A DNA stretch of 54,148 nt from Nitrospira sp. (GTDB lineage Bacteria; Nitrospirota; Thermodesulfovibrionia; Thermodesulfovibrionales; SM23-35): positions 1 to 54,148 of the forward strand of contig VGWX01000007.1 of the NCBI GenBank assembly GCA_016873615.1, written 5' to 3'. The position numbers and the translations under genes were made by a program. The notes beneath the pieces are model-generated. The model saw only the letters and a program-made list of their open reading frames with translations, had not been told where the DNA came from and ran no database searches. Positions 10,883 through 35,947 of the stretch are shown piece by piece (positions within the stretch are counted from its first letter, which is position 1; every line of letters starts with the position of its first letter).

Positions 10883-13522
10883 ATGATAAAAAGGGGAGCC
10901 GATATATTATTGAGTCAGCAGTCTGAGATGAAAACAGAAAAAATGGCTAAATGCTGGGAAGTTCTTGACTGTAATGAAAAGGCATGCCCTGCCTATATGT
11001 CAAGCAAATTAGAGTGCTGGCTTACCCCAGGGACCCTCTGTCGAAACTCAATACAGGGAAATTTTCTGGACAAGATTGAATTGTGCATAGGGTGTAATGT
11101 TTTTTCAATAAATATAAATATCGATTCAATAAAAGAAACACTCAAGATAGTTGATAAACAGTTCAGGGAATTCAGGGAGATTGTTCGGGAGAGGGATGAA
11201 GAGGTGGAAAGTATCGGTCTTGAGCTGGCAATAAGTCTCTCTGAGGTATTTGAAGCATTAAAGAAAATTTCTCAGGGAGATCCATCGGTAAAGATATCCG
11301 AAGGTTCTACAATTGAACTTATCAGCAGATTAAAACATATCGTTAATATGACAGCTGGAGGCATCAGTGAAATCGTCGATCTCTCGCATGAATTTGCTAT
11401 TTGTCTTGCAGAACACTTTGATGTATTGCACAGGGTTTCAAAAGGTGATCTCAATGCAAAAGTAACCGGAGCTTCACAGGTTGAGCTTCTTGAATCACTG
11501 AAAAATGTAACAAATGAAACAATCGAAAATATATCACATGAAATCGAGAAACGAAAGAACGCAGAAAATGCGCTCCGTAAATCTGAGGAGAGGTACCGTG
11601 TTATCTTCGAGAATACCGGGACTCCAACAATAATTGTGGAAGAAGATATGATGATATCCATGGCAAACAAGGAATTCGAAAAATTCTCAGGATATATAAG
11701 AGATGAAATTGAAGGCGAAAAAACCCTGCTGGAATTTATTCTGAAAGATGATATCGAAAGATTTAGAGATTATAATGATACAAAATCGTTTCTCCTGAAA
11801 AATTGTTTAAATTCTTTAGAATTCAGGTTTGTCAATAAACAGGGCAATGTTAAGGATATCATAGCAGTTGTTTCCATGATACCGGGAACAAAAATGAGGG
11901 TAGCCTCTTTATTGGAAATCACCGAGCGCAGGCAGAGGGAAATGGAAGCTATTGTTATGTTAACTGCTGCCTTGCGCTCTGCGCAAACCCGTGCCGATAT
12001 GCTACCTGTAGTTATCAACCAGTTGATGAATCTGCTGAAAGCAGAAGGAGCATCATTGGCTATCCGGGATACAATCAGTGGAGAGACGCTGATCGAAATT
12101 GCACGGGGTGAATGGGCAAACTGGACAGGCTTAAGGTTGCCGCCGGGTGAGGGGATAAGCGGACATGTCATTGATACAGGGCTCCCTTATTTAAACAATA
12201 ATATACTGTCTGATCCGCGCTTTGCCAGGCCCGAGCTGATCGGTAATCTCCAGGCTGTTGCCTGCGCCCCGCTTATTGAACAGGGGCAGACGATAGGCGC
12301 GATCTGGATAGGCCGTAAATCTGAAATTGCAGAATACGAAGTCCAGCTGCTCACAGCAATCGGAGAGATTGCTGCAAATGCGATACATCGGACCTCTCTC
12401 CATGAACAGACTGAACAACGTTTGCAACGCCTTTATGCGCTGCACGCTATTGATATGGCTATAACAGCAAGCCTGGATCTTCGTGTTACGCTCAATATTC
12501 TGCTTGAACATGTTACGAATCAGCTTCATACAGACGCTGCAACAGTTTTGCTGCTTAATCCTTATTCGCAGACTCTCGAATATGCTGCAAGCCGTGGCTT
12601 TCGCTCACATTCCATTAAAAATACGAGGCTGAAATTAGGTGAGGGCCATGCAGGAAAAGCAGCAATCGAACGACGGTTGATCAGCATTCCGAATGTGTTA
12701 AAGACAGAAGACCCATGCGTTCGCACACAAATACTGTCAGGTGAAGTATTTATTGCACATCATGCGGCCCCGCTTATTGCAAAAGGCCAGGTAAAAGGAG
12801 TTCTCGAAGTTTTTCACAGGACTCAACTCGTACCGGACCCTGAGTGGCTGGAATTTTTTGAAGCCCTTGCATCACAGGCAGCCATTGCCATAGATAACGC
12901 TACACTTTTTGATCAACTACAGCGCTCAAATATTGAACTTTCACTGGCTTACGACACAACTCTGGAAGGATGGTCGCATGCACTTGATATGCGCGACAAA
13001 GAGACAGAGGGACATACCCTGCGGGTAACCGAGATGACCATTCAGCTTGCGCGCAGTATGGGTATAAGCGAAGCTGAACTCGAACACATACGTAGAGGAG
13101 CATTGCTCCATGATATCGGGAAGATGGCAATCCCTGATACAATACTTCTCAAGCCGGGGCCGCTCAGCAATGAAGATTATGAGATCATGCGAAGGCATCC
13201 TGCCCATGCACATAAGATGTTATCGCCAATTTCCTTTTTAAGGCAGGCATTGAACATTCCTTACTGCCACCATGAAAAATGGGATGGCACAGGCTATCCT
13301 CATGGGTTAAAGGGTGAGCAGATACCGCTTGAAGCCCGCGTATTTGCTGTTGTTGATGTATGGGATGCTCTCACGTCAAACCGTCCGTATCGTCCTGCCT
13401 GGAATAGAGAAGATGCATTGAAATACATACAAGAGCAATCAGGCCGGCACTTTGACCCAAAGGTTGCAGAAACCTTTCTCAAAATGCTTTCTCAAAAGCC
13501 TTCATTTGCCATAACGAACTAA
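10883..13522 (+). CDS. Two-CW-like / PAS / GAF / GAF / HD-GYP signalling protein (probable c-di-GMP phosphodiesterase)
   Basis: 879 aa. Residues ~20-75 are the same Cys/Trp module as the kinase-like protein at 7558 (KCWEVLDC..CPAY..ECW..LCRN..CIGCNVF), followed by a HAMP-like helical region to ~215. Then PAS (~240-345), two GAF domains (~365-520 and ~530-690), and HD-GYP (~705-870). The HD-GYP metal and signature residues are present: LLHDIGK (His743, Asp744), HHEKWDGTGYP (GYP ~804), VVDVWDALTSNRPYR. It should hydrolyse c-di-GMP in the cytoplasm under control of ligands sensed by PAS/GAF. The start is uncertain: ATG 10928 or TTG ~10909 (after GGGGAG) are alternatives. Single gene, 130 bp before the phosphatase operon. 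Confidence 0.9.
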   Translation: MIKRGADILLSQQSEMKTEKMAKCWEVLDCNEKACPAYMSSKLECWLTPGTLCRNSIQGNFLDKIELCIGCNVFSININIDSIKETLKIVDKQFREFREIVRERDEEVESIGLELAISLSEVFEALKKISQGDPSVKISEGSTIELISRLKHIVNMTAGGISEIVDLSHEFAICLAEHFDVLHRVSKGDLNAKVTGASQVELLESLKNVTNETIENISHEIEKRKNAENALRKSEERYRVIFENTGTPTIIVEEDMMISMANKEFEKFSGYIRDEIEGEKTLLEFILKDDIERFRDYNDTKSFLLKNCLNSLEFRFVNKQGNVKDIIAVVSMIPGTKMRVASLLEITERRQREMEAIVMLTAALRSAQTRADMLPVVINQLMNLLKAEGASLAIRDTISGETLIEIARGEWANWTGLRLPPGEGISGHVIDTGLPYLNNNILSDPRFARPELIGNLQAVACAPLIEQGQTIGAIWIGRKSEIAEYEVQLLTAIGEIAANAIHRTSLHEQTEQRLQRLYALHAIDMAITASLDLRVTLNILLEHVTNQLHTDAATVLLLNPYSQTLEYAASRGFRSHSIKNTRLKLGEGHAGKAAIERRLISIPNVLKTEDPCVRTQILSGEVFIAHHAAPLIAKGQVKGVLEVFHRTQLVPDPEWLEFFEALASQAAIAIDNATLFDQLQRSNIELSLAYDTTLEGWSHALDMRDKETEGHTLRVTEMTIQLARSMGISEAELEHIRRGALLHDIGKMAIPDTILLKPGPLSNEDYEIMRRHPAHAHKMLSPISFLRQALNIPYCHHEKWDGTGYPHGLKGEQIPLEARVFAVVDVWDALTSNRPYRPAWNREDALKYIQEQSGRHFDPKVAETFLKMLSQKPSFAITN

Positions 13523-13652
13523 ACGCCTCTTTTCCGTCATTCTGAAGCAGCATTCCGACTGAAGAATCTGCCCGTGGATATATTTGTTTTTATTTACCTT
13601 GAAATCTTCATTAAAATCTGGTATCCAATATGGTATGAAAGAAGGAAATAAA

Positions 13653-14924
13653 GTGAGCGTGGCCGTGGATTACCTTGCCCGTTTAGAAAAAAAAGTCGAA
13701 ACGCTGAAGATACTTACGGAGGTTTCTCCTGTTATCTCATCAACTCTCGATTTAAAAGAACTCATGACCATTGTCATGGAAAAGGCAAAGGATATCATGC
13801 AGGCAGAGGCATGCTCAATCCTGCTGTATAACAAAGATACTAAAAAACTTGAATTTGAGGTCGCGATCTCTGAAAATAAATCTGCAACGGATATTTTGAA
13901 AGAGAAAATCAGTCTTGACTTAGGGCAGGGAATCGCGGGTTGGGTGGCGCAGAATCGTGAACTGTTGTTTATTAAGGATGTAAGGAAAGACAAACGCTTT
14001 TATCATGAAGCAGACAAGAAGACCGGATTCACGACAAAGAGTCTTATCGCTGCTCCGCTTATCGGGAGGCGCGGGCTTATTGGCGTTGCTGAAATCATTA
14101 ACCCCGGTAAAGAGGAGTATGATTTAGAGATACTGAAGATTCTCACCAAACACTTTGCCATTGCAATAGAAAACGCGCTCTACCATAAAGATGCACTTGA
14201 AAAAGAAAGGCTGAAACAGGAGCTTGAGATAGCTGCTACATTGCAAAAGAGCTTTCTCCCTGAATCTCCGCGCTGTAAGAAAGGCAATGTAATGGTGTCG
14301 GCAGTGAATATCCCTGCAAAACTGGTTGGAGGAGACCTCTACGATTTCACAGAACTCTCCGGGGGTAAGCTCGGAATCTTTATAGGCGATGTTTGCGGCA
14401 AAGGGATATCTGCTGCGCTTTATATGGCCAAAATTATAAGCGACTTCAGATACATTGCCCATGCAGAAGATTCTCCTGAGATTGTGATGAACAGATTGAA
14501 TTCCCTGCTGTCAAAAACTCCCCGGGGCATGTTTCTTACGGCAATTTATATGATAATGGATACCAGAAATGGAGGGGCTGTTATTTCTGTCGCAGGACAT
14601 CCGCCATTCCTCTGGATAACACAAAAGGGGGTAAAAGTGTCTTCTCTTGTTTCCGGAGCGCCGCTTGGAATAATACCAGAAGATTACAGTTCAGGCGCTA
14701 TTTCTCTCAGTAAAGGTGACAGGCTTTTGTTGATCACTGACGGCGTATTCGAGGCAAAGAATAAAAAGGGACAGAGGATTGGTTTTTCTGGTCTTTTGCG
14801 TTTTGTAAAAAAGAATAAGAATGATAAAAGACTTGTTAAGAAGATTGCTGAATATGTAAATATATTTTCAAGAGGCGCTGAAAAGGCGGATGATCTGACC
14901 ATTGTGGAAGTGAAATATTTATGA
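13653..14924 (+). CDS. GAF-PP2C (SpoIIE/RsbU-type) serine phosphatase
   Basis: About 423 aa from GTG 13653, chosen because AAGGA lies 7 bases upstream; ATG 13635 or TTG 13584 are in frame but lack ribosome sites. A coiled coil (~5-25) leads into a GAF domain (~25-180: AEACSILLYNK, LGQGIAGWVAQ, SLIAAPLIG). The PP2C/SpoIIE domain (~200-420) shows its metal Asp motifs LVGGDLYDF, GDVCGKGISAAL and LITDGVFEAKN. In RsbU systems this enzyme dephosphorylates a STAS antagonist. The kinase-like gene starts inside its last codons (ATGA-type overlap at 14921-14924), so the two are translationally coupled. Confidence 0.9.
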   Translation: MSVAVDYLARLEKKVETLKILTEVSPVISSTLDLKELMTIVMEKAKDIMQAEACSILLYNKDTKKLEFEVAISENKSATDILKEKISLDLGQGIAGWVAQNRELLFIKDVRKDKRFYHEADKKTGFTTKSLIAAPLIGRRGLIGVAEIINPGKEEYDLEILKILTKHFAIAIENALYHKDALEKERLKQELEIAATLQKSFLPESPRCKKGNVMVSAVNIPAKLVGGDLYDFTELSGGKLGIFIGDVCGKGISAALYMAKIISDFRYIAHAEDSPEIVMNRLNSLLSKTPRGMFLTAIYMIMDTRNGGAVISVAGHPPFLWITQKGVKVSSLVSGAPLGIIPEDYSSGAISLSKGDRLLLITDGVFEAKNKKGQRIGFSGLLRFVKKNKNDKRLVKKIAEYVNIFSRGAEKADDLTIVEVKYL

Positions 14925-15337
14925 AGGACTTTGCAACTATTGCTATTCCGTCCCATCCGAAATATCTTTCCATTGTTAGGTCTGTGACAGGGAAAATAGC
15001 GCAAATATATGAAATCACCGAAACCTTAACAGAGGATATGAAACTTGCTGTTGACGAGGCTTGTGCAAATGTCATTAAACATGCTTACCAGGGAGACAGA
15101 ACAAAAAAGATTGTATTAAAATACAAAATTACAAAAAAGTCCTTTAATGTAATTATCGAAGACAGCGGGATCAAGGCAAAAACGGATTTAATAAAAGGGA
15201 GGGATCTGGACGATATAAGGCCCGGGGGGCTGGGAATTCATTTTATCAAACGGGTATTTGATGTATTTCATTTTGATGAAACCAAGAAAAAAGGCAACAG
15301 ATTGATACTCATTAAATACATGAACATAAAGAAATGA
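14921..15337 (+). CDS. RsbW-like serine-protein kinase / anti-sigma-type ATPase
   Basis: 138 aa, a single GHKL ATPase domain of the HATPase_c_2 (RsbW/SpoIIAB) type. The N-box is VDEACANVIKHAY (~47-59) and the glycine lid is RPGGLGIHFIKRVFD (~100-115). EDSGIKA sits where the ATP-contacting DxG box lies. Such proteins phosphorylate a Ser on a STAS partner and bind the unphosphorylated form or a sigma factor. It overlaps the phosphatase before it by 4 bases and the STAS gene after it by 4 bases. No sigma-factor gene is in the cluster, so its output may not be a sigma factor. Confidence 0.9.
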   Translation: MKDFATIAIPSHPKYLSIVRSVTGKIAQIYEITETLTEDMKLAVDEACANVIKHAYQGDRTKKIVLKYKITKKSFNVIIEDSGIKAKTDLIKGRDLDDIRPGGLGIHFIKRVFDVFHFDETKKKGNRLILIKYMNIKK

Positions 15338-15663
15338 ACATAGGGATCGCATCCTATAAAGGCAGCAAGGTAATCCAGCTGTCAGGAGACATTGACATGT
15401 ACTCGTCTCCTGAACTGAGAACCGAATTGATGGGCCTGATAAAGAAGAGAATATCACCATTATATGTTGACTTTAAAGAGGTATCATATATAGACAGCTC
15501 AGGCATAGCAACCTTTGTTGAGGGGCTGAAGATTATGAAGACATATGATGGTAGATTGCGTCTTTTCTGCATACCTCAGGGAATCATGGAGATATTCAGG
15601 TTTTCGAAGCTTGACAGGGTATTCGAGATATACGGAAGCATTGATGATGCCATCAACAGCTGA
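15334..15663 (+). CDS. STAS-domain protein (anti-anti-sigma / MlaB-like)
   Basis: 109 aa, one STAS domain. The conserved phosphorylation loop is YIDSSGIATF with Asp54-Ser55-Ser56-Gly57, so a phosphorylatable Ser is kept. It resembles SpoIIAA/RsbV (substrate of an RsbW-type kinase), but E. coli MlaB, which binds the MlaF ATPase, is also a STAS protein. Position supports both: it overlaps the kinase gene upstream by 4 bases and its last ~20 bases overlap the start of mlaE downstream. I infer that it may be a phospho-controlled MlaB. That is not shown by sequence alone. Confidence 0.9.
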   Translation: MNIGIASYKGSKVIQLSGDIDMYSSPELRTELMGLIKKRISPLYVDFKEVSYIDSSGIATFVEGLKIMKTYDGRLRLFCIPQGIMEIFRFSKLDRVFEIYGSIDDAINS

Positions 15664-16453
15664 AAACATCCTGAACTCTGCAGTCAGGAAGGCAAGGTCG
15701 ATTTCCAGGGATATACACGATGCGTCAAAGATTATAAACGATATTTTTTTCTGGTCGTTTATCTCTCCCCTTAAAGGCAAGCCGCTCAGGTTCAGGGCGA
15801 GTATTAATGAGATGGTTAAGGCCGGCTATAATTCAGTGCCGATCGTAGCCGTCATTTCATTCTTCATAGGCATCATACTGGCATTTCAGGCAGCATACCA
15901 GCTTAAGAGGGTAGGAGCGCTTATCTATGTCGCAAACCTTGTAGGCGTATCGATAACAAGAGAGCTTGGACCGATAATAACAGCCATTATAGTATCAGGG
16001 AGGAGTGGTTCTGCCTTTGCAGCAGAAATCGGATCGATGAAGGCTGCTGAGGAGGTCGACGCCCTTATCAGCATGGGGATAAATCCCGTAAGGTTTATCG
16101 TTGTACCGAAGCTTATTGCCCTTATGGTTATGGTTCCCGCCCTTACAATATTTTCAGATTTCATAGGCATCCTTGGCGGCTTTGTCCTTTCTGTGACTAT
16201 TCTCGAAATCCATCCTGTCAATTATTTTCTGCAGACAGTGAACGCCCTGCTCGTAAAAGATGTAATGACCGGACTCATTAAGGCATGGGCCTTCGGTATC
16301 GTGATAACGACTGTCGGCGCATACCAGGGATTTAAGGTGACCGGAGGAGCAGAAGAAGTGGGAAGACGTACAACTGCTGCTGTTGTTGCCTCTATTTTTC
16401 TGGTAATTGTTTTTGATCTGTTTTTTACGACTATGTTTTATTATTTCACATAA
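15644..16453 (+). CDS. mlaE: MlaE-type ABC permease (copy A)
   Basis: 269 aa from ATG 15644 (15647 is equally possible; GGAAG lies 5 bases upstream). Six-helix-type permease with family segments VPIVAVISFFIGIILAFQAAYQL, GVSITRELGPIITAIIVSGRSGSAFAAEIG, the EEVDAL coupling helix, and a final ~ITTVGAYQGFKVTGGAEEVG. MlaE, with MlaF and MlaD, moves phospholipids between inner membrane and periplasmic carriers. It starts inside the STAS gene, so translation of the two is coupled. The second copy at 32919 has the same organisation but no STAS gene. Confidence 0.9.
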   Translation: MMPSTAENILNSAVRKARSISRDIHDASKIINDIFFWSFISPLKGKPLRFRASINEMVKAGYNSVPIVAVISFFIGIILAFQAAYQLKRVGALIYVANLVGVSITRELGPIITAIIVSGRSGSAFAAEIGSMKAAEEVDALISMGINPVRFIVVPKLIALMVMVPALTIFSDFIGILGGFVLSVTILEIHPVNYFLQTVNALLVKDVMTGLIKAWAFGIVITTVGAYQGFKVTGGAEEVGRRTTAAVVASIFLVIVFDLFFTTMFYYFT

Positions 16454-16460
16454 GATTATT

Positions 16461-17246
16461 ATGGAAAATGCAATCCAGGTGACCGGTCTTGTTGCCCGTT
16501 ACGGAGACAGAGAAATCCTGAAAGATATATCGTTCTTTATACCAAGGGGAATGACGACTGTAATACTCGGAGGAAGCGGATGCGGCAAAAGCACTCTCCT
16601 GAAACATCTGATCGGGCTTTTGAAACCAACACAGGGACAGATCAAGATCAACGGAAAAAACATAGCAGCGCTGAACGAGAACGAATTGAATGAAGTGCGG
16701 AAGAAGATGGGAATTTTATTTCAGGGAGCTGCCCTTCTCAATTCCATGACGATCGCAGACAACGTTGCCCTTCCTATGAGGGAGCATACCAGGCTGGAAG
16801 AAACCACAATACAGATTATGGTGCGCATGAAGCTTGACCTCGTTGGACTCTCAGGTTTTGAAGAGTTCTATCCTTCACAGCTTTCCGGTGGAATGAAAAA
16901 GAGAGCAGGCCTGGCAAGGGCAATAGCGCTGGACCCTGAGCTGCTTTTCTTTGACGAGCCATCTGCAGGGCTTGATCCCATAACTGCCGCAGGACTTGAT
17001 GAGTTGATACTAAAACTCAGGAATGTATTTAAGATGACGATAATTGTTGTAACCCATGAGCTTCCAAGTGTATTCACGATCGCGGATTATGTTATCATGC
17101 TTGATGCCGGCGAGATTATTTTTTCAGGAACGCTCGATGAGCTGAGGGCGTCTGTTCATCCAAGGATAAAGATGTTTCTTGAGAGACAGCCGGAACAGGA
17201 GACATATTCACCTGAGGATTATTTCAGGATTATTGCCGGAGAATAA
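16461..17246 (+). CDS. mlaF: MlaF-type ABC ATPase (copy A)
   Basis: 261 aa from ATG 16461, the first Met that fits the domain start (MENAIQVTGLVARYGDREIL). Walker A GGSGCGKST, Q-loop LFQGAALLNSMTI, signature LSGGMKKRAGLARA, Walker B LLFFDEPSAGLDP and the switch His in VVTHELPS are all present. The ending IKMFLERQPEQETYSPEDYF extends past the core domain. It powers the MlaE permease at the inner membrane; in E. coli the STAS protein MlaB binds this subunit. It lies 7 bp after mlaE. Confidence 0.9.
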   Translation: MENAIQVTGLVARYGDREILKDISFFIPRGMTTVILGGSGCGKSTLLKHLIGLLKPTQGQIKINGKNIAALNENELNEVRKKMGILFQGAALLNSMTIADNVALPMREHTRLEETTIQIMVRMKLDLVGLSGFEEFYPSQLSGGMKKRAGLARAIALDPELLFFDEPSAGLDPITAAGLDELILKLRNVFKMTIIVVTHELPSVFTIADYVIMLDAGEIIFSGTLDELRASVHPRIKMFLERQPEQETYSPEDYFRIIAGE

Positions 17247-17284
17247 AAAATCCTCTATTTAAAAAGGGGAGGCAGGGTTAGATA

Positions 17285-18181
17285 TTGAAAGAAGAGATTA
17301 AGGCAGGAATAATAATCATCGCATCCCTCGCTATACTCAGCAGCTTTATCATTCTGATAGGCGGCAGCGAGCTTTTTGAAAAATATGACAAATACTACAT
17401 GAAAGTTATGAATACAGCCGGACTCGAAACCGGCGCTCAGGTCAGGCTCGGTGGTGTAAGGGTTGGAAGGGTTACGGACGTAAAACCACCTGGCAGTCCC
17501 GGAGAGCCTGTTGCTGTGGAAATCGGAGTAAAAAGAGGGACTGTTCTGTATAAAGGCACCAAGGCTCTGATTACACAGATAGGATTTGTCGGAGATATAT
17601 ATCTCCTTCTTGCCGTTGACGGCACTATAAACGAGAGGATTAAAGTTGGTGATGTTATTCCGACTGAAGAGAAGGTTCAGTTTGACCTGCTTATGGCAAA
17701 AATGAATACCCTGTCACAATCAGTGGATATTCTTATTAAAGATATAAATAAGCTTTTTAGCGAGAAGAATGTAAAAGGGATAGAAACTTTAATCGGAAAT
17801 ACAAACAATGCTATTATTTCCGGTTCATCGAATATTGAAAAAATAGCGATGAACATGAAGGATACTTCAGCAAAGCTTGAACGTGTTCTGAATGAGGTAG
17901 AAGATATTATCCACAGCAATAAAGCTGAAGTTGCGCAATTGATAAAGAAGGCAAGGGAAGATATAGAGAAAGCTGGAGAAATGATCAATAGCATAGAATC
18001 AACAGCGAAGTCGGTTGAAAAGACATCAAAATCAGCTGATAAAGCTATTAACCTTCAGTCCAGAAATCTCGAAAACCTTATCGGAGCCATGACAAAAACA
18101 ACAGAAGAGTTGCAGGATCTCCTCAGGGAGATAAAACATAAGCCATGGAGTTTTATTTACAAAGAAAAAAGGGGGGAATGA
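17285..18181 (+). CDS. mlaD: MlaD-type MCE substrate-binding protein (copy A)
   Basis: 298 aa from TTG 17285. One membrane anchor (~7-27: GIIIIASLAILSSFIILIGG), an MCE domain (~38-118: NTAGLETGAQVRLGGVRVGRV, LITQIGFVGDIYLLL), then a long helical tail (~130-290) with heptad-like pattern ending KPWSFIYKEKR. MCE proteins form hexameric rings that pass lipid between membranes. The short upstream gap (17247-17284) is a decayed copy of the G-rich repeat and supplies the GGGGAGG that may serve as ribosome site. The next gene starts one base after its stop. Confidence 0.9.
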   Translation: MKEEIKAGIIIIASLAILSSFIILIGGSELFEKYDKYYMKVMNTAGLETGAQVRLGGVRVGRVTDVKPPGSPGEPVAVEIGVKRGTVLYKGTKALITQIGFVGDIYLLLAVDGTINERIKVGDVIPTEEKVQFDLLMAKMNTLSQSVDILIKDINKLFSEKNVKGIETLIGNTNNAIISGSSNIEKIAMNMKDTSAKLERVLNEVEDIIHSNKAEVAQLIKKAREDIEKAGEMINSIESTAKSVEKTSKSADKAINLQSRNLENLIGAMTKTTEELQDLLREIKHKPWSFIYKEKRGE

Positions 18182-18182
18182 G

Positions 18183-18782
18183 ATGAAAAAAATACTTTTA
18201 TTCATCTTATCTGTTTGTTTCTTATATGCCTGCTCAATGCCTGAAACAAAGATTTACAGCATTTATCTGCCTGCAGCCTCTGCGTCCACGGATATCGGGA
18301 AGGAGAGGGCAGATGAGGCAAGCTCAAGGTCTGTCGTAATACTTATGAATTCCCCCAGGTATCTTGTTCAGCCTTACATTGCTTACAGGAATTCACCGTA
18401 TCAACTTGAGATATCAAGATATTCAAAGTGGGAATCACCGCCCGGTGATATAGTAAAGGATGCATTCAAGAATTACTTATCATCTTCAGGGGTTTTTAAT
18501 GAGGTCAGGGCATCGAATGTCGTGCCCGAGGGATTTTATTCATTTGAAATAAACCTGAAAAAATTTGAGAGATATGATCAGGGAAACGATTCCTACGGGG
18601 AACTTTATTATGATATTAAAGTTTATTCACCTGACAGCAAGGAATTATATAGGGCAACCGTTTTAAAAAAGGTTAAACTCGACAACAGTACCTTCCTTTG
18701 TCTTGCTGAGGGATTAAGCAGCGCACTTTCTGAAAGCATCAAAGAAGTAACTGGGAGTTTAAATGAAGCGGTAGATAATTAG
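18183..18782 (+). CDS. ABC-type transport auxiliary lipoprotein (PqiC/MlaX-like)
   Basis: 199 aa. Residues 1-17 are a lipoprotein signal with lipobox FLYAC (Cys ~16), followed by SMPETKIYSIYLP, the usual opening of the ABC-transport auxiliary family (PqiC-type). SPYQLEISRYSKWESPPGDIVKDAF is the conserved centre. These outer-membrane lipoproteins accompany MCE transporters and probably link the MlaD ring or tunnel to the outer membrane. It begins one base after mlaD and closes the operon; the convergent khpA gene ends 26 bp beyond. Confidence 0.85.
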   Translation: MKKILLFILSVCFLYACSMPETKIYSIYLPAASASTDIGKERADEASSRSVVILMNSPRYLVQPYIAYRNSPYQLEISRYSKWESPPGDIVKDAFKNYLSSSGVFNEVRASNVVPEGFYSFEINLKKFERYDQGNDSYGELYYDIKVYSPDSKELYRATVLKKVKLDNSTFLCLAEGLSSALSESIKEVTGSLNEAVDN

Positions 18783-18807: not shown

Positions 18808-19038
18808 TTAATCCAATATTTCGAGAACACAGCGTTTGCCTATTTTTGTTCCCGAAGCGCTCAATATTGTTCTCATTGCACGCGCTGTATTCCCCTGCTT
18901 TCCTACAATCTTCCCAATATCACTTGCAGCAACACGCAATTCAAAGAGCGCAGTTTTTTCTCCGCCTACCTCGTTTACTACAACCTCCTGCGGTTTATCT
19001 ACCAACGATTTCGCCATGAGTTCAATAAGCGCTTTCAT
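18808..19038 (-). CDS. khpA: KH-domain RNA-binding protein KhpA
   Basis: 76 aa from ATG 19038, set by GGAGGTTGAT just upstream; a longer frame to 19080 lacks such a site. Starts [21 protein letters not shown] and carries the type II KH motif [24 protein letters not shown], the GxxG being GKQG. In other bacteria KhpA pairs with KhpB and binds many RNAs, with effects on cell division and sRNA regulation. It follows the RRM gene by 69 bp on the same strand. The pairing of two RNA-binding genes suggests co-expression. Confidence 0.9.
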
Positions 19039-19107
19039 ATCAACCTCCATAAGTATTTGGGCTGTTTTTTTCAGACCCAATATTTTTAAGAGTTTTTTTA
19101 CAATAAT

Positions 19108-19422
19108 CTATCTCCAACCTCTCCCTGTATCCCCTCCCCCATAGCCACTGCTTCTTTTATTAAAACCTTGCCGTTTCTGTTGAGGTCTCGCCTCAGCTAC
19201 AGCAAGTGATTTTCCCATGAAATCTTTTCCATTAAGGGTTGCGATTGCCTTTTTTGCATCTTCTTCATTTATCATCTCAATAAAACCAAATCCTTTAGAC
19301 CGGTCCGTGAATTGATCCTTCAATATTTTTAATGATTCAATCTCACCAATCTCTGAAAAAAATTCCCTCAATTCCTCTTCAGTGGCTTTGTATGGGATAT
19401 TACCAACATACAATTTATTCAT
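19108..19422 (-). CDS. RRM RNA-binding protein
   Basis: 104 aa. A single RNA recognition motif spans residues 1-80. RNP2 is LYVGNI (4-9) and RNP1 is KGFGFIEM (~44-51), the aromatic positions intact. The tail (~81-104) is basic and glycine-rich (QQKRQGFNKRSSGYGGGDTGRG), like cold-inducible cyanobacterial Rbp proteins. Likely an RNA chaperone. AGGAGG precedes the ATG. It lies in a minus-strand row with khpA, and cspA is about 0.85 kb upstream, so three RNA/ssDNA-binding genes cluster. Confidence 0.9.
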   Translation of the reverse strand: MNKLYVGNIPYKATEEELREFFSEIGEIESLKILKDQFTDRSKGFGFIEMINEEDAKKAIATLNGKDFMGKSLAVAEARPQQKRQGFNKRSSGYGGGDTGRGWR

Positions 19423-31782: not shown

Positions 31783-32935
31783 AGGGCCTGTTGCAGAGAT
31801 CAGTTTATCTGCTATAGGGCAAAACCTTCAGGCTATAAGAAAGATTGTCAAAAACCGTCCGGTAATTGCTGTGGTAAAGGCTGATGCTTATGGTCACGGT
31901 GCGGTTGAAGTTTCAAAAAGACTCCTCAAAGAAGGAATCTCTTACCTTGCAGTTGCGTATATCAACGAAGCTGTTGAACTCAGGGACGCCGGCATCACTG
32001 TCCCTATAATTGTTCTATTTGACACGGAAGATGTTAAATCAATCTTTGATTTTAACCTCATGCCTGTTATCTGCGATATGGATAATGCCTTATCTCTATC
32101 ACGGGAATCAAAAAAAAGAAACATCCCTCTAAAGGTTCATGTTAAGGTTGACACCGGTATGGGAAGGATGGGATTGCATGGGAATCATATCATTACGGAT
32201 TTGATGAAGATATCAGACATGCATGGACTCGAAATAACAGGCATGTTAAGCCATTTTTCAGAAGCCGACCTCTCAGACAGGACTTATGCAAAAATTCAGC
32301 TTGAACGATTTAATGCAATAAAGGAAAAAATCTCTGAGAAATTAAAGAGAAGGATTTTTTCTCATATAGCGAACAGCGCAGCCATCCTGAGCTTTCAGGA
32401 AGCGCACCTCGATGCAGTAAGGCCAGGACTGATGCTTTATGGATATTCTCCCTTTAATTATGGAACAAATCCCCCCTTACCCCCCTTTGCTAAAGGGGGG
32501 CAGGGGGGGATTACTCATGGCATTAATCTTATTCCCGCGATGTCAATCAAAACCAGGATTCTTTGCATCAGAAATGTGCCTTCAGGTACGCCAATAAGTT
32601 ACGGCAGAACTTTCATTACAAAGAGACCGAGCAGGATAGGTGTGATTCCTTTAGGATATGCTGACGGATATAACAGACTGTTTTCGAATAATGCTGAAGT
32701 GCTTGTAAACAGAAGGCGTGCCCCTGTCGCAGGCAGGGTATGCATGGACCTGACCATGATTGACCTTACAGATGTCAAAGGCGCTAAAGAAAAAGATGAA
32801 GTAGTCATAATCGGCAGGCAGGGCAATGAATCAATAAAAGCTGAAGAGCTTGCATTTCGCTCAAATACAATATCGTATGAGATACTGACAACGCTTGGAA
32901 GCAGATCAAAGAGAACATATGTTGAGACCCATTGA
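31775..32935 (+). CDS. alr: Alanine racemase carrying an in-frame repeat-derived insert
   Basis: 386 aa from GTG 31775. The PLP lysine is in AVVKADAYGHGA (~35), the substrate/Tyr side in VPSGTPISYGRTF (~270) and RVCMDLTMIDL (~318). Makes D-Ala for peptidoglycan; the D,D-carboxypeptidase at 45626 trims such peptides. Residues ~232-246 (NPPLPPFAKGGQGGI) come from a 45-bp palindromic repeat (32468-32512), lying between LYGYSPFN and the LIPAMSIKTRIL strand, a surface loop region in alanine racemases. The insert keeps the frame. mlaE begins inside the last codons. Confidence 0.93.
   Translation: MFRGPVAEISLSAIGQNLQAIRKIVKNRPVIAVVKADAYGHGAVEVSKRLLKEGISYLAVAYINEAVELRDAGITVPIIVLFDTEDVKSIFDFNLMPVICDMDNALSLSRESKKRNIPLKVHVKVDTGMGRMGLHGNHIITDLMKISDMHGLEITGMLSHFSEADLSDRTYAKIQLERFNAIKEKISEKLKRRIFSHIANSAAILSFQEAHLDAVRPGLMLYGYSPFNYGTNPPLPPFAKGGQGGITHGINLIPAMSIKTRILCIRNVPSGTPISYGRTFITKRPSRIGVIPLGYADGYNRLFSNNAEVLVNRRRAPVAGRVCMDLTMIDLTDVKGAKEKDEVVIIGRQGNESIKAEELAFRSNTISYEILTTLGSRSKRTYVETH
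32468..32512. repeat. 45-bp palindromic repeat inside alr
   Basis: AATCCCCCCTTACCCCCC (32468-32485) and GGGGGGCAGGGGGGGATT (32495-32512) pair around TTTGCTAAA. Fifteen codons exactly, no stop in the used frame. Same family as 5976-6077. Confidence 0.9.
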
Positions 32936-33692
32936 ACTTATAGGAAAGACAATTATACGTTTCTCCGAGGAACTTGGCAGGATATTGATACTCCTTTCTT
33001 TAACTGTCAGGCACATGTTGCTTCCCCCCTATGAAGTGAGGAATACCTTCAAACAAATGCTTGAGATCGGAGTGCGATCTTTGCCTGTTGTGCTGATAAC
33101 AGCAATTTTTACAGGAATGGTCTTTGCCCTCCAGACCTTTACAGGGTTTAAGAGATTTGGCGCTGAAGGAGTTGTAGGAACTGTTGTTGCGCTTTCGATG
33201 ACGAGAGAACTTGGGCCTGTCCTTACAGGTCTTATAGTAGCAGGAAGGGCAGGGGCTGCCATGGCAGCTGAATTAGGAACTATGAGAGTTACAGAACAGA
33301 TAGATGCACTCGAAACATTGGCAACGAATCCTATAAAATATCTTATCGTTCCGAGATTTATAGCCGGTATGCTTATGCTTCCGGCGCTTGCTGCAGTAGC
33401 TGACATAACCGGTATAATAGGCGGTTATTTCATTACTGTGGGACTCTTTGATACAAGTTCGATCGCATACTGGAAAAGGACATGGAATTATTTGATGATA
33501 AGTGATATTTACAATGGCTTGATAAAAGCAGGATTTTTTGGTGCAAGCATTTCACTGTTAAGCTGTTATAAGGGGTTTTATACAAGGGGAGGAGCTGAAG
33601 GTGTCGGAAAAGCAACAACCGGAGCAGTAGTTTTATCATCTATGACCATATTAATATCTGACTATTTTCTCTCGGTATGGTTATTTAAATGA
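32919..33692 (+). CDS. mlaE: MlaE-type ABC permease (copy B)
   Basis: 257 aa from ATG 32919 (a TTG at 32895 is in frame but deep inside alr). Family segments SLPVVLITAIFTGMVFALQT, MTRELGPVLTGLIVAGRAGA, MRVTEQIDALETLATNPIKY (coupling helix) and SCYKGFYTRGGAEGVGKATT. With the next two genes forms an inner-membrane lipid transporter. It overlaps alr by 17 bases. Clearly paralogous to copy A at 15644, but without an adjacent STAS gene. Confidence 0.92.
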   Translation: MLRPIELIGKTIIRFSEELGRILILLSLTVRHMLLPPYEVRNTFKQMLEIGVRSLPVVLITAIFTGMVFALQTFTGFKRFGAEGVVGTVVALSMTRELGPVLTGLIVAGRAGAAMAAELGTMRVTEQIDALETLATNPIKYLIVPRFIAGMLMLPALAAVADITGIIGGYFITVGLFDTSSIAYWKRTWNYLMISDIYNGLIKAGFFGASISLLSCYKGFYTRGGAEGVGKATTGAVVLSSMTILISDYFLSVWLFK

Positions 33693-33708
33693 AGATTAAT
33701 TATTGCTT

Positions 33709-34488
33709 ATGATAGAGATCATTAACGTTCACAAATCATTTGGGAAAAAATATGTGCTTGGAGGAGTAAATCTCAGGGTTGAAAAAGGCGAAAGCATGGT
33801 CGTTATCGGCGGGAGCGGTTCCGGGAAAAGCGTTTTACTAAAGCATATTATAGGAATTATAAAGCCGGATGAAGGCAAAGTACTTATAGACGGCATCGAT
33901 ATAACTTCACTTAGAGAGAATGAACTATATGAAGTCAGAAAGCAATTTGGTATGCTTTTTCAAATGGCAGCATTATTTGATTCAATGACTGTATGGGAGA
34001 ATGTTGCTTTTGCATTGCTCAGGCAAAAAAAATTAAGCGTAAAAGACGCTAAGTCTCATGCCATTGAAAAATTGAGAATAGTTGGGCTCGTAGGCGTAGA
34101 GGATTTAATGCCATCAGAACTTTCAGGAGGGATGAAAAAAAGGGTAGGGCTTGCAAGGGCTATTGCACATGAACCTGACATATTGTTGTATGATGAGCCT
34201 ACAACAGGACTTGACCCCATTATGGCAGATGCGATTAATGACCTTATTGTTGATATGAGAGAGGCCCTCTCTGTTACCAGTATTGCTATAACTCATGATA
34301 TGAACAGTGCTTACAAAATTGGCGACAAAATTGCCATGCTTTATGAAGGGAAGATAATAGAAACAGCAACCCCTGATGCAATAAAGAGTACGCAAAACCC
34401 TCTGGTAAGGCAATTTATAACCGGCAGCGCAGTAGGCCCAATAAAGATAGAAGGAGTAGATTATGAGAAGTCTTTCAACAGAACTTAA
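33709..34488 (+). CDS. mlaF: MlaF-type ABC ATPase (copy B)
   Basis: 259 aa from ATG 33709 (TTG 33703 is alternative). Walker A GGSGSGKSVLLKH, Q-loop LFQMAALFDSMTV, signature LSGGMKKRVGLARA, Walker B ILLYDEPTTGLDP, switch His in AITHDMNS. The C-terminal extension (VRQFITGSAVGPIKIEGVDY) fits MlaF. mlaD overlaps its end by 26 bases. Confidence 0.93.
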   Translation: MIEIINVHKSFGKKYVLGGVNLRVEKGESMVVIGGSGSGKSVLLKHIIGIIKPDEGKVLIDGIDITSLRENELYEVRKQFGMLFQMAALFDSMTVWENVAFALLRQKKLSVKDAKSHAIEKLRIVGLVGVEDLMPSELSGGMKKRVGLARAIAHEPDILLYDEPTTGLDPIMADAINDLIVDMREALSVTSIAITHDMNSAYKIGDKIAMLYEGKIIETATPDAIKSTQNPLVRQFITGSAVGPIKIEGVDYEKSFNRT

Positions 34489-35947
34489 GGTAGGTTTCTT
34501 TGCACTATTCGTCATATCAATCCTTGTATTTATGACATTTAAAATAGGCGCCCTCGACTGGATGAAAAAAGAAGGTTATATGGTACATGTCTATTTTAAA
34601 AATATTGCGGGCCTTGACGAAAAAACCAAAGTGAAAATAGCCGGAGTCAATGCCGGTTTTATAGAAAAAATACAGCTTTCAGACGGCAAGGCAAAGCTGA
34701 CTGTCAGGATGAATAAGGAAATCCCCCTTTATGAAGACGCAAGCGCTTCTATCAAGGCGTCGGGCCTTCTTGGCGACAAGTATCTCGACATAAGGCCGGG
34801 CTATCAAAAACCAGCACTCAAAAATGGAGCCACCATCCATAATGTTGTGGAGATTGTCGACCTTGATGATCTGACGCGAAATCTTACCGCTGTGTCGGAA
34901 AATATCAATATTCTTGCCAAATCATTCAATGAATCATTTGGCACTGAAGAGGCCAAAGATGCATTAAAACAATCTGTGTTGAATATAAAAGACATAACTA
35001 TAGATTTAAAGGAAGCCATTTCTGTAAATGACAATAAACTGAGAGATGCGCTCGACAACATTAATAATCTTACGGCTTCAATTAATGACCTGATTCAAAA
35101 GAATAAAGATACAGTATCAACAGCTGCAGGCAATATAAAAGACTTTTCTGTAAGTTTAAAGCAGGACACCCCTCAGCTGATTGCGAAACTTAATAAGGCA
35201 GCTGATGAACTGAAGGCCATGGTCGAGGAGAACCGACCCACCATAAAAAGTGCTGCAGACTCTATTGACAACATCGCAAAGAAAATTGATAAAGGCGAAG
35301 GGACTCTCGGCAAGCTCGTAAAGGATGAGAGTCTTTATGAGAATATAAACAAGGCTGCAGCCGGGATCGATAAGACTATATCGACAGTGGAAAGGTTCAA
35401 GACTTTCATAACCTTTCAGGGAGATTATCTTACGGAAGCGAAAGAGGGGAAGGGATATTTCTATCTCACTCTCCAGCCAAAACCCGATAAGTACTATATT
35501 CTGGGTGTTGTCGGAGATCCCTTGGGAAAATCAACTACAAAAGAGACAACTACAATAACCTCCAGCGGCACAACTAAGGTTAAGGAGATCGAGACAAAGA
35601 AAAAGATAGAATTTACAGCACAGTATGCGATGAGGTACAAAGATGCAGTATTAAGATTAGGACTTACAGAAAATACATTTGGCGCAGGGGCAGACCTTTT
35701 CTTTAATAACGACAGAGGCAAATTAGCAATAGACGCCTGGGACTTTTCCAATGATGAAGAAGAATCTAAAAACCCCCATGTGAGAGCCGGGGTAGATTAT
35801 TTTATTTTCAAAAATGTATTTATATCAGCTGGTGTTGATAATATCATGAACAAGAAGTGGCGTGGCGGCTACGCAGGCATGGGACTGCGTTTTGAGGATG
35901 AAGATATCAAGTACCTGTTTGGGACATTGCCAAAGATTTCTCCCTAA
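34463..35947 (+). CDS. mlaD: MlaD-type MCE protein with C-terminal beta-rich region (copy B)
   Basis: 494 aa, far longer than E. coli MlaD (~180) and copy A (298). Anchor helix ~10-28 (VGFFALFVISILVFMTFKI); MCE domain ~38-118 (KNIAGLDEKTKVKIAGVNAG, SGLLGDKYLDIRPG); long helical stretch ~130-310 with repeated DNI/AAxxI heptads; then ~315-490 an alternating, aromatic-rich segment: GKGYFYLTLQP, KIEFTAQYAMRY, AVLRLGLTENTFGAGADLFF, VRAGVDYFIFKNVFISAGVD, GGYAGMGLRF. This last part looks like outer-membrane beta-strands. Such MCE-helix-barrel fusions are known from diderm Firmicutes, where one protein spans the periplasm. Spanning here is inferred. Confidence 0.88.
   Translation: MRSLSTELKVGFFALFVISILVFMTFKIGALDWMKKEGYMVHVYFKNIAGLDEKTKVKIAGVNAGFIEKIQLSDGKAKLTVRMNKEIPLYEDASASIKASGLLGDKYLDIRPGYQKPALKNGATIHNVVEIVDLDDLTRNLTAVSENINILAKSFNESFGTEEAKDALKQSVLNIKDITIDLKEAISVNDNKLRDALDNINNLTASINDLIQKNKDTVSTAAGNIKDFSVSLKQDTPQLIAKLNKAADELKAMVEENRPTIKSAADSIDNIAKKIDKGEGTLGKLVKDESLYENINKAAAGIDKTISTVERFKTFITFQGDYLTEAKEGKGYFYLTLQPKPDKYYILGVVGDPLGKSTTKETTTITSSGTTKVKEIETKKKIEFTAQYAMRYKDAVLRLGLTENTFGAGADLFFNNDRGKLAIDAWDFSNDEEESKNPHVRAGVDYFIFKNVFISAGVDNIMNKKWRGGYAGMGLRFEDEDIKYLFGTLPKISP

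Follow-up and report, generated by a model that had tools for sequence, protein, structure and literature searches.

We examined a seven-gene operon at positions 13635 to 18782 of a 54,148-nucleotide stretch of DNA from Nitrospira sp. (contig VGWX01000007.1; this whole stretch is referred to as the window). The operon appears to encode an MCE-type lipid ATP-binding cassette (ABC) transporter, made of MlaE, MlaF, MlaD and a lipoprotein, together with its own serine kinase/phosphatase switch. In the reading that we favour, with a probability of about 0.62, the STAS protein is an MlaB-like regulator of MlaF that the RsbW-type kinase would turn off by phosphorylating Ser55 and the PP2C phosphatase would turn on again by reversing this. 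The genes are as follows.

13635..14924, + strand: GAF and SpoIIE/PP2C (RsbU-like) phosphatase (Pfam SpoIIE 1.5e-42, GAF 3.5e-14)
14921..15337, + strand: RsbW/SpoIIAB-type GHKL serine kinase (HATPase_c_2 6.5e-25; best PDB match RsbW 6m36_A, 4.9e-14)
15334..15663, + strand: RsbV-type STAS protein (STAS 5.6e-18; Ser55 codon at 15496-15498)
15644..16453, + strand: mlaE permease (PF02405 1.7e-76)
16461..17246, + strand: mlaF ATPase with a C-terminal extension, YSPEDYFRIIAGE (PRK11831 MlaF 9.9e-72, below the curated cut-off; PDB MlaF 2e-63)
17285..18181, + strand: long MlaD/MCE protein with a C-terminal helical part and a TTG start (PF02470 4.5e-10)
18183..18782, + strand: ABC_trans_aux/PqiC-like lipoprotein (PF03886 7.7e-07)

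The phosphatase and kinase genes overlap by 4 bp, the kinase and STAS genes by 4 bp and the STAS and mlaE genes by 20 bp (17 bp if mlaE starts at 15647). A 7-bp gap separates mlaE from mlaF, with mlaD and then the lipoprotein gene downstream, and the permease, ATPase and MCE-domain protein complete the parts of an Mla/MCE lipid ABC transporter. An earlier reading of the window from its letters alone (the sequence-only reading) had described this order and these overlaps, and both were borne out by the open reading frame (ORF) coordinates and domain searches. Compared by sequence with known structures, the kinase and the STAS protein come closest to B. subtilis RsbW and to RsbV-type proteins, respectively. 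Its start for the phosphatase gene, 13653, is an alternative in-frame GTG, and the genes it called fused by overlap do overlap but yield no fused protein.

A candidate switch on MlaF

The helical face of SpoIIAA-type STAS proteins is the face bound by the SpoIIAB kinase. E. coli MlaB contacts MlaF through the same face, which is centred on Thr52; the T52E substitution weakens this binding (PMC7367683) and T52A abolishes ATPase activity (PMC5016091). As both partners use one face, the STAS protein here may be shared between RsbW and MlaF. Unphosphorylated STAS would dock on MlaF in the manner of E. coli MlaB, leaving the ATPase assembled or active, whereas RsbW would bind the same helical face and phosphorylate Ser55. 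The phosphorylated form would be freed from both RsbW and MlaF, and transport would be off. A signal sensed through the GAF domain would drive the PP2C protein, predicted to serve both as phosphatase for phosphorylated STAS and as signal input, and the dephosphorylated STAS would turn transport on.

The idea that MlaB is phosphorylated was raised in 2016 (Thong, PMC5016091) and was still an open question in 2020 (Kolich, PMC7367683), with no kinase known. For this role the present locus offers a candidate kinase and a candidate phosphatase. If the proposal is true, phosphorylation would directly switch an ABC lipid transporter, and partner switching would have an ABC transporter among its outputs. 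The switch is testable with purified proteins, and cultured carriers of the linkage include Telmatospirillum siberiense, Caenispirillum bisanense and Acidobacterium sp. S8.

The residues needed for such chemistry are intact. In the kinase, R20, E46, N50, D81, G102, G103 and G105 (the GGxG motif) were found to be invariant in 93/93 Mla-linked kinases, and the metal-binding Asp equivalents of the phosphatase (D234, D252, D369 and D419/D420) in 87/87 Mla-linked homologues. The STAS protein contains D54-S55-S56-G57; the serines noted earlier after Asp54 are thus present, and alignment to RsbV and SpoIIAA places the phosphosite at the first of them, S55. This acceptor Ser, following Asp, sits at the start of helix 2 as in RsbV-type STAS proteins.

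The input domains of the phosphatases vary, with GAF-SpoIIE in most loci and HDOD-SpoIIE in some Gammaproteobacteria, which suggests a different input signal where HDOD takes the place of GAF. On phosphatases upstream of RsbW, the HDOD domain was confirmed by Pfam in L144 and L153, and HDOD-like N-termini were also observed in L242, L244, L248 and L254.

The C-termini of STAS-linked MlaF proteins keep an aromatic-x3-hydrophobic motif (e.g., DYFRIIAG and EYLRRLTG), which resembles in sequence the C-terminal extension of E. coli MlaF, where Tyr261, Leu265 and Leu266 fill a groove between MlaB and MlaF (PMC7367683). Two further MlaE copies occur in the host genome, on contigs C18 and C47, and a second Mla locus lies in the window (mlaE/F/D, 32895-35947, with a long mlaD of 494 amino acids). 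As the sequence-only reading had stated, genes for a STAS protein, a kinase or a phosphatase are missing from this second locus. The motif was unmatched in the MlaF of the C47 paralogue and of the second locus, the latter having a related tail. The pattern is supportive only, since its regular expression matches 15% of shuffled tails and one C18 paralogue without a visible extension. The host MlaC and MlaA genes are found at a separate locus.

Conservation and spread of the linkage

The relatives place the host genome in Nitrospirota, close to Thermodesulfovibrionales. A close STAS protein was found in approximately 28 genomes among 100 relatives. About 25 of the relatives' loci read PP2C-RsbW-STAS-MlaE, most of them continuing with MlaF, MlaD and the lipoprotein, and nearly all of 80 loci in a contig survey carry RsbW or a PP2C-RsbW fusion, then STAS, then mla genes. 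In 64/94 loci the stop codons of STAS and MlaE lie exactly 790 nt apart. Conservation of this extent in relatives and in most of the 80 loci, together with the fixed spacing, indicates that the order is more than chance; the earlier proposal would have lost its footing had the order not been kept in relatives. Natural PP2C-RsbW fusions occur beside STAS-Mla genes, while no RsbW-STAS or STAS-MlaF fusions were found next to mla genes among the surveyed loci.

The system extends well past this genome and its relatives. The linkage was observed in Acidobacteriota, Planctomycetota, Hydrogenedentota/Abyssobacteria, Wallbacteria, Nitrospinota, Thermodesulfobacteriota and Alpha- and Gammaproteobacteria. 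The phyla in which it occurs number at least eight, and it comes in two gene orders and with MlaE proteins from two distant lineages. Because it recurs so widely, the locus probably shows how some bacteria raise or lower lipid traffic between their two membranes. In a tree of 127 MlaE sequences, the kinase-linked state needs 3 changes, compared with 24 when the labels are shuffled. Ten gammaproteobacterial kinase-linked MlaE proteins fall in a lineage apart from the rest, adjoining the kinase-less C18 paralogue of the host genome, and several of these ten loci are ordered RsbW-STAS-MlaF-MlaE.

One Nitrospirota genus (three genomes) has a STAS gene overlapping mlaE with neither a kinase nor a phosphatase gene adjoining. 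In the MlaE tree it is nested within loci that bear the kinase, and the local kinase appears to have been lost there with STAS kept beside mlaE. Weaker RsbW homologues are encoded elsewhere in the three genomes, and a kinase may act in trans. A broader proposal is that gating by a kinase and a phosphatase is an ancient and widespread way of regulating MCE lipid transporters, with canonical MlaB descending from this phospho-switched STAS and retaining the acceptor Ser/Thr without a kinase; it is tentative and rather unlikely in our estimation.

The survey across phyla was seeded with a STAS peptide, and it was redone with an RsbW profile in Gammaproteobacteria, Alphaproteobacteria, Acidobacteriota and Nitrospirota. 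Strong profile matches were Mla-linked in 41/45 gammaproteobacterial, 12/13 alphaproteobacterial, 2/2 Acidobacteriota and 30/30 Nitrospirota cases; two of the four gammaproteobacterial exceptions lie at contig ends. Strong-type RsbW was found in about 46/274 sampled gammaproteobacterial genomes, which is a lower bound; the linkage is thus found in roughly every sixth gammaproteobacterial species genome sampled, and also in seven other phyla. In many of the weaker matches STAS precedes RsbW, which is the usual order. In Candidatus Magnetocorallium (L051/L116), another RsbW-STAS pair is encoded on the other strand, at a distance of a few kb from the Mla-linked pair.

Points against the switch and rival explanations

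Several observations weigh against the proposed switch. The phosphorylation of the STAS protein and its binding to MlaF, as well as the polarity and the signal, are steps that we infer. In favour of the switch, 85/90 strong RsbW matches in total have mlaE or mlaF in the examined flank compared with 0/37 weaker ones, but the figure describes a faithful subfamily and not a fraction of all RsbW, as the profile was built from Mla-linked sequences. Even within this subfamily, two strong RsbW-STAS pairs (L220 and L243) lack mla genes in the flank examined, and a third strong RsbW (L271) has neither an mla gene there nor a recognised STAS; the targets of these three kinases may be encoded elsewhere. 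A shorter MlaF C-terminal extension is also predicted in a species without MlaB (PMC10665443). Kinase-linked STAS proteins have Ser as the acceptor in 98/98 cases, and so do 24/24 canonical MlaB proteins without a nearby kinase. Finally, the STAS protein is closer to RsbV than to MlaB in sequence and in modelled fold. The AlphaFold2 model (mean predicted local distance difference test score 95.8) has a fifth strand (98-100) and a C-terminal helix (103-107), and RsbV 6m36_B was the top Foldseek match (template modelling score 0.83-0.90 for RsbV), with E. coli MlaB ranked lower.

Conservation of the acceptor serine was rejected as proof of phosphorylation because kinase-less MlaB shows the same invariance. 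The flanking motif does differ, being DSSG in kinase-linked STAS proteins and mostly DSAG in canonical MlaB; DSSG in L126-L153 was left out of the conservation count, as YIDSSGIA was the search seed there. The STAS protein matches TIGR00377 and TIGR02886 and was not recovered with the NCBIfam mlaB model NF033618 at E<=0.001; that model gave zero matches above its cut-off in the gammaproteobacterial survey. The sequence-only reading had called the protein a phospho-switchable MlaB and cited Ser55/Ser56 in support. What holds of it is the link between a partner-switching module and an Mla/MCE transporter, on the strength of the domains and the conserved order. The protein may act in the manner of MlaB without being an MlaB itself, having an RsbV/SpoIIAA-like length and fold with an extra strand and helix relative to E. 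coli MlaB, and the serines, while present, carry no weight as evidence on their own.

In classical partner switching, RsbW itself would bind and inhibit MlaF or MlaE, and unphosphorylated STAS would free this target, acting as an antagonist and not as a subunit. Such a scheme follows the logic of B. subtilis, where the kinase holds the target, and it suits a STAS protein that is RsbV-like and whose best fold match is the RsbV of an RsbV/RsbW complex. An antagonist would however be needless without its kinase, and STAS is kept beside mlaE where the local kinase is missing. It is also STAS, not RsbW, that adjoins mlaE or mlaF in the Mla-linked order, and the partner of E. coli MlaF is a STAS protein (PMC7367683). 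We therefore regard the kinase as inhibitor as unlikely. The module might instead act on a sigma factor or transcription regulator whose gene lies elsewhere, and merely sit in one operon with the transporter, accompanying its expression. A sigma factor is the usual end point of RsbU/RsbW/RsbV modules, and the host has four RpoD-like and one extracytoplasmic function (ECF) sigma factor. No SigB/SigF/FliA-type sigma factor was found in the host genome (Nitrospirota, 99.98% complete), none of any kind is encoded within the locus, as had been noted before, and among about 115 related loci whose flanks were scanned a sigma factor match, of the ECF type, occurred at one only. The mla linkage is moreover kept across phyla, both gene orders and both MlaE lineages, and we judge a distant target to be unlikely as well.

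The host genome encodes a single RsbW-type kinase. Its only other STAS match (L387, 1480-1797, contig C53), next to a response-regulator-like gene, reads DLAN where the acceptor would be and is predicted from this to be non-phosphorylatable. The genome thus offers the kinase no second evident target. The STAS protein of the operon could also be a constitutive MlaB-like subunit, with phosphorylation acting on assembly or turnover or with the opposite polarity, the phospho-form being active. MlaB does stabilise MlaF in E. coli (PMC7367683, PMC5016091), and phosphorylation of Bordetella BtrV promotes partner binding (PMC8256260), while the weakened MlaB-MlaF binding of T52E (PMC7367683) favours phosphorylation as the off state; this is in our judgement the least likely of the three alternatives.

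Related systems and neighbouring genes

The operon resembles E. coli MlaFEDB (PMC5016091, PMC7367683) in having a STAS protein encoded with MlaE, MlaF and MlaD, a Ser/Thr at the same site and an MlaF C-terminal extension with an aromatic-hydrophobic motif. In contrast, the E. coli-type operons examined have no kinase or phosphatase gene, mlaB is the last gene there whereas the STAS gene here overlaps mlaE, and the fifth strand and C-terminal helix found here are absent from E. coli MlaB (PMC7367683). With the RsbU-RsbW-RsbV and SpoIIE-SpoIIAB-SpoIIAA modules of B. subtilis it shares a PP2C phosphatase, a GHKL kinase and a STAS protein with the same catalytic and acceptor residues, RsbV being the closest STAS fold; it differs in having no cognate sigma factor, a kinase gene that precedes the STAS gene, and a linked ABC lipid transporter.

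STAS switches without a known sigma target are also found in V. fischeri SypE/SypA and Bordetella BtrU/V/W (PMC8256260), and SypE is a dual kinase/phosphatase comparable to the PP2C-RsbW fusions in the surveyed loci, but the outputs there are biofilm and type III secretion control rather than an ABC lipid transporter. Brucella Mpc (PMC12436622) has a STAS domain in an MCE transporter with a long MlaD-like MpcD, although MpcE is a STAS-MlaE fusion and the paper makes no mention of phosphorylation. No description of the PP2C/RsbW/STAS-Mla linkage was found in open-access full texts (MlaE + RsbW + STAS; MlaB + RsbU), an absence which is not proof of novelty; within that literature the earlier statement that no such system had been described holds.

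Just upstream of the operon, at 10883-13522, lies a gene for a PAS-GAF-GAF-HD-GYP protein, likely a cyclic di-GMP phosphodiesterase; a GAF-bearing ORF in the same place was observed only in the closest relatives (L035 and L036). On the minus strand, convergent with the operon, adjacent genes at 19108-19422 and 18808-19080 encode a putative small RRM-like RNA-binding protein and a putative small KH-domain-like protein.

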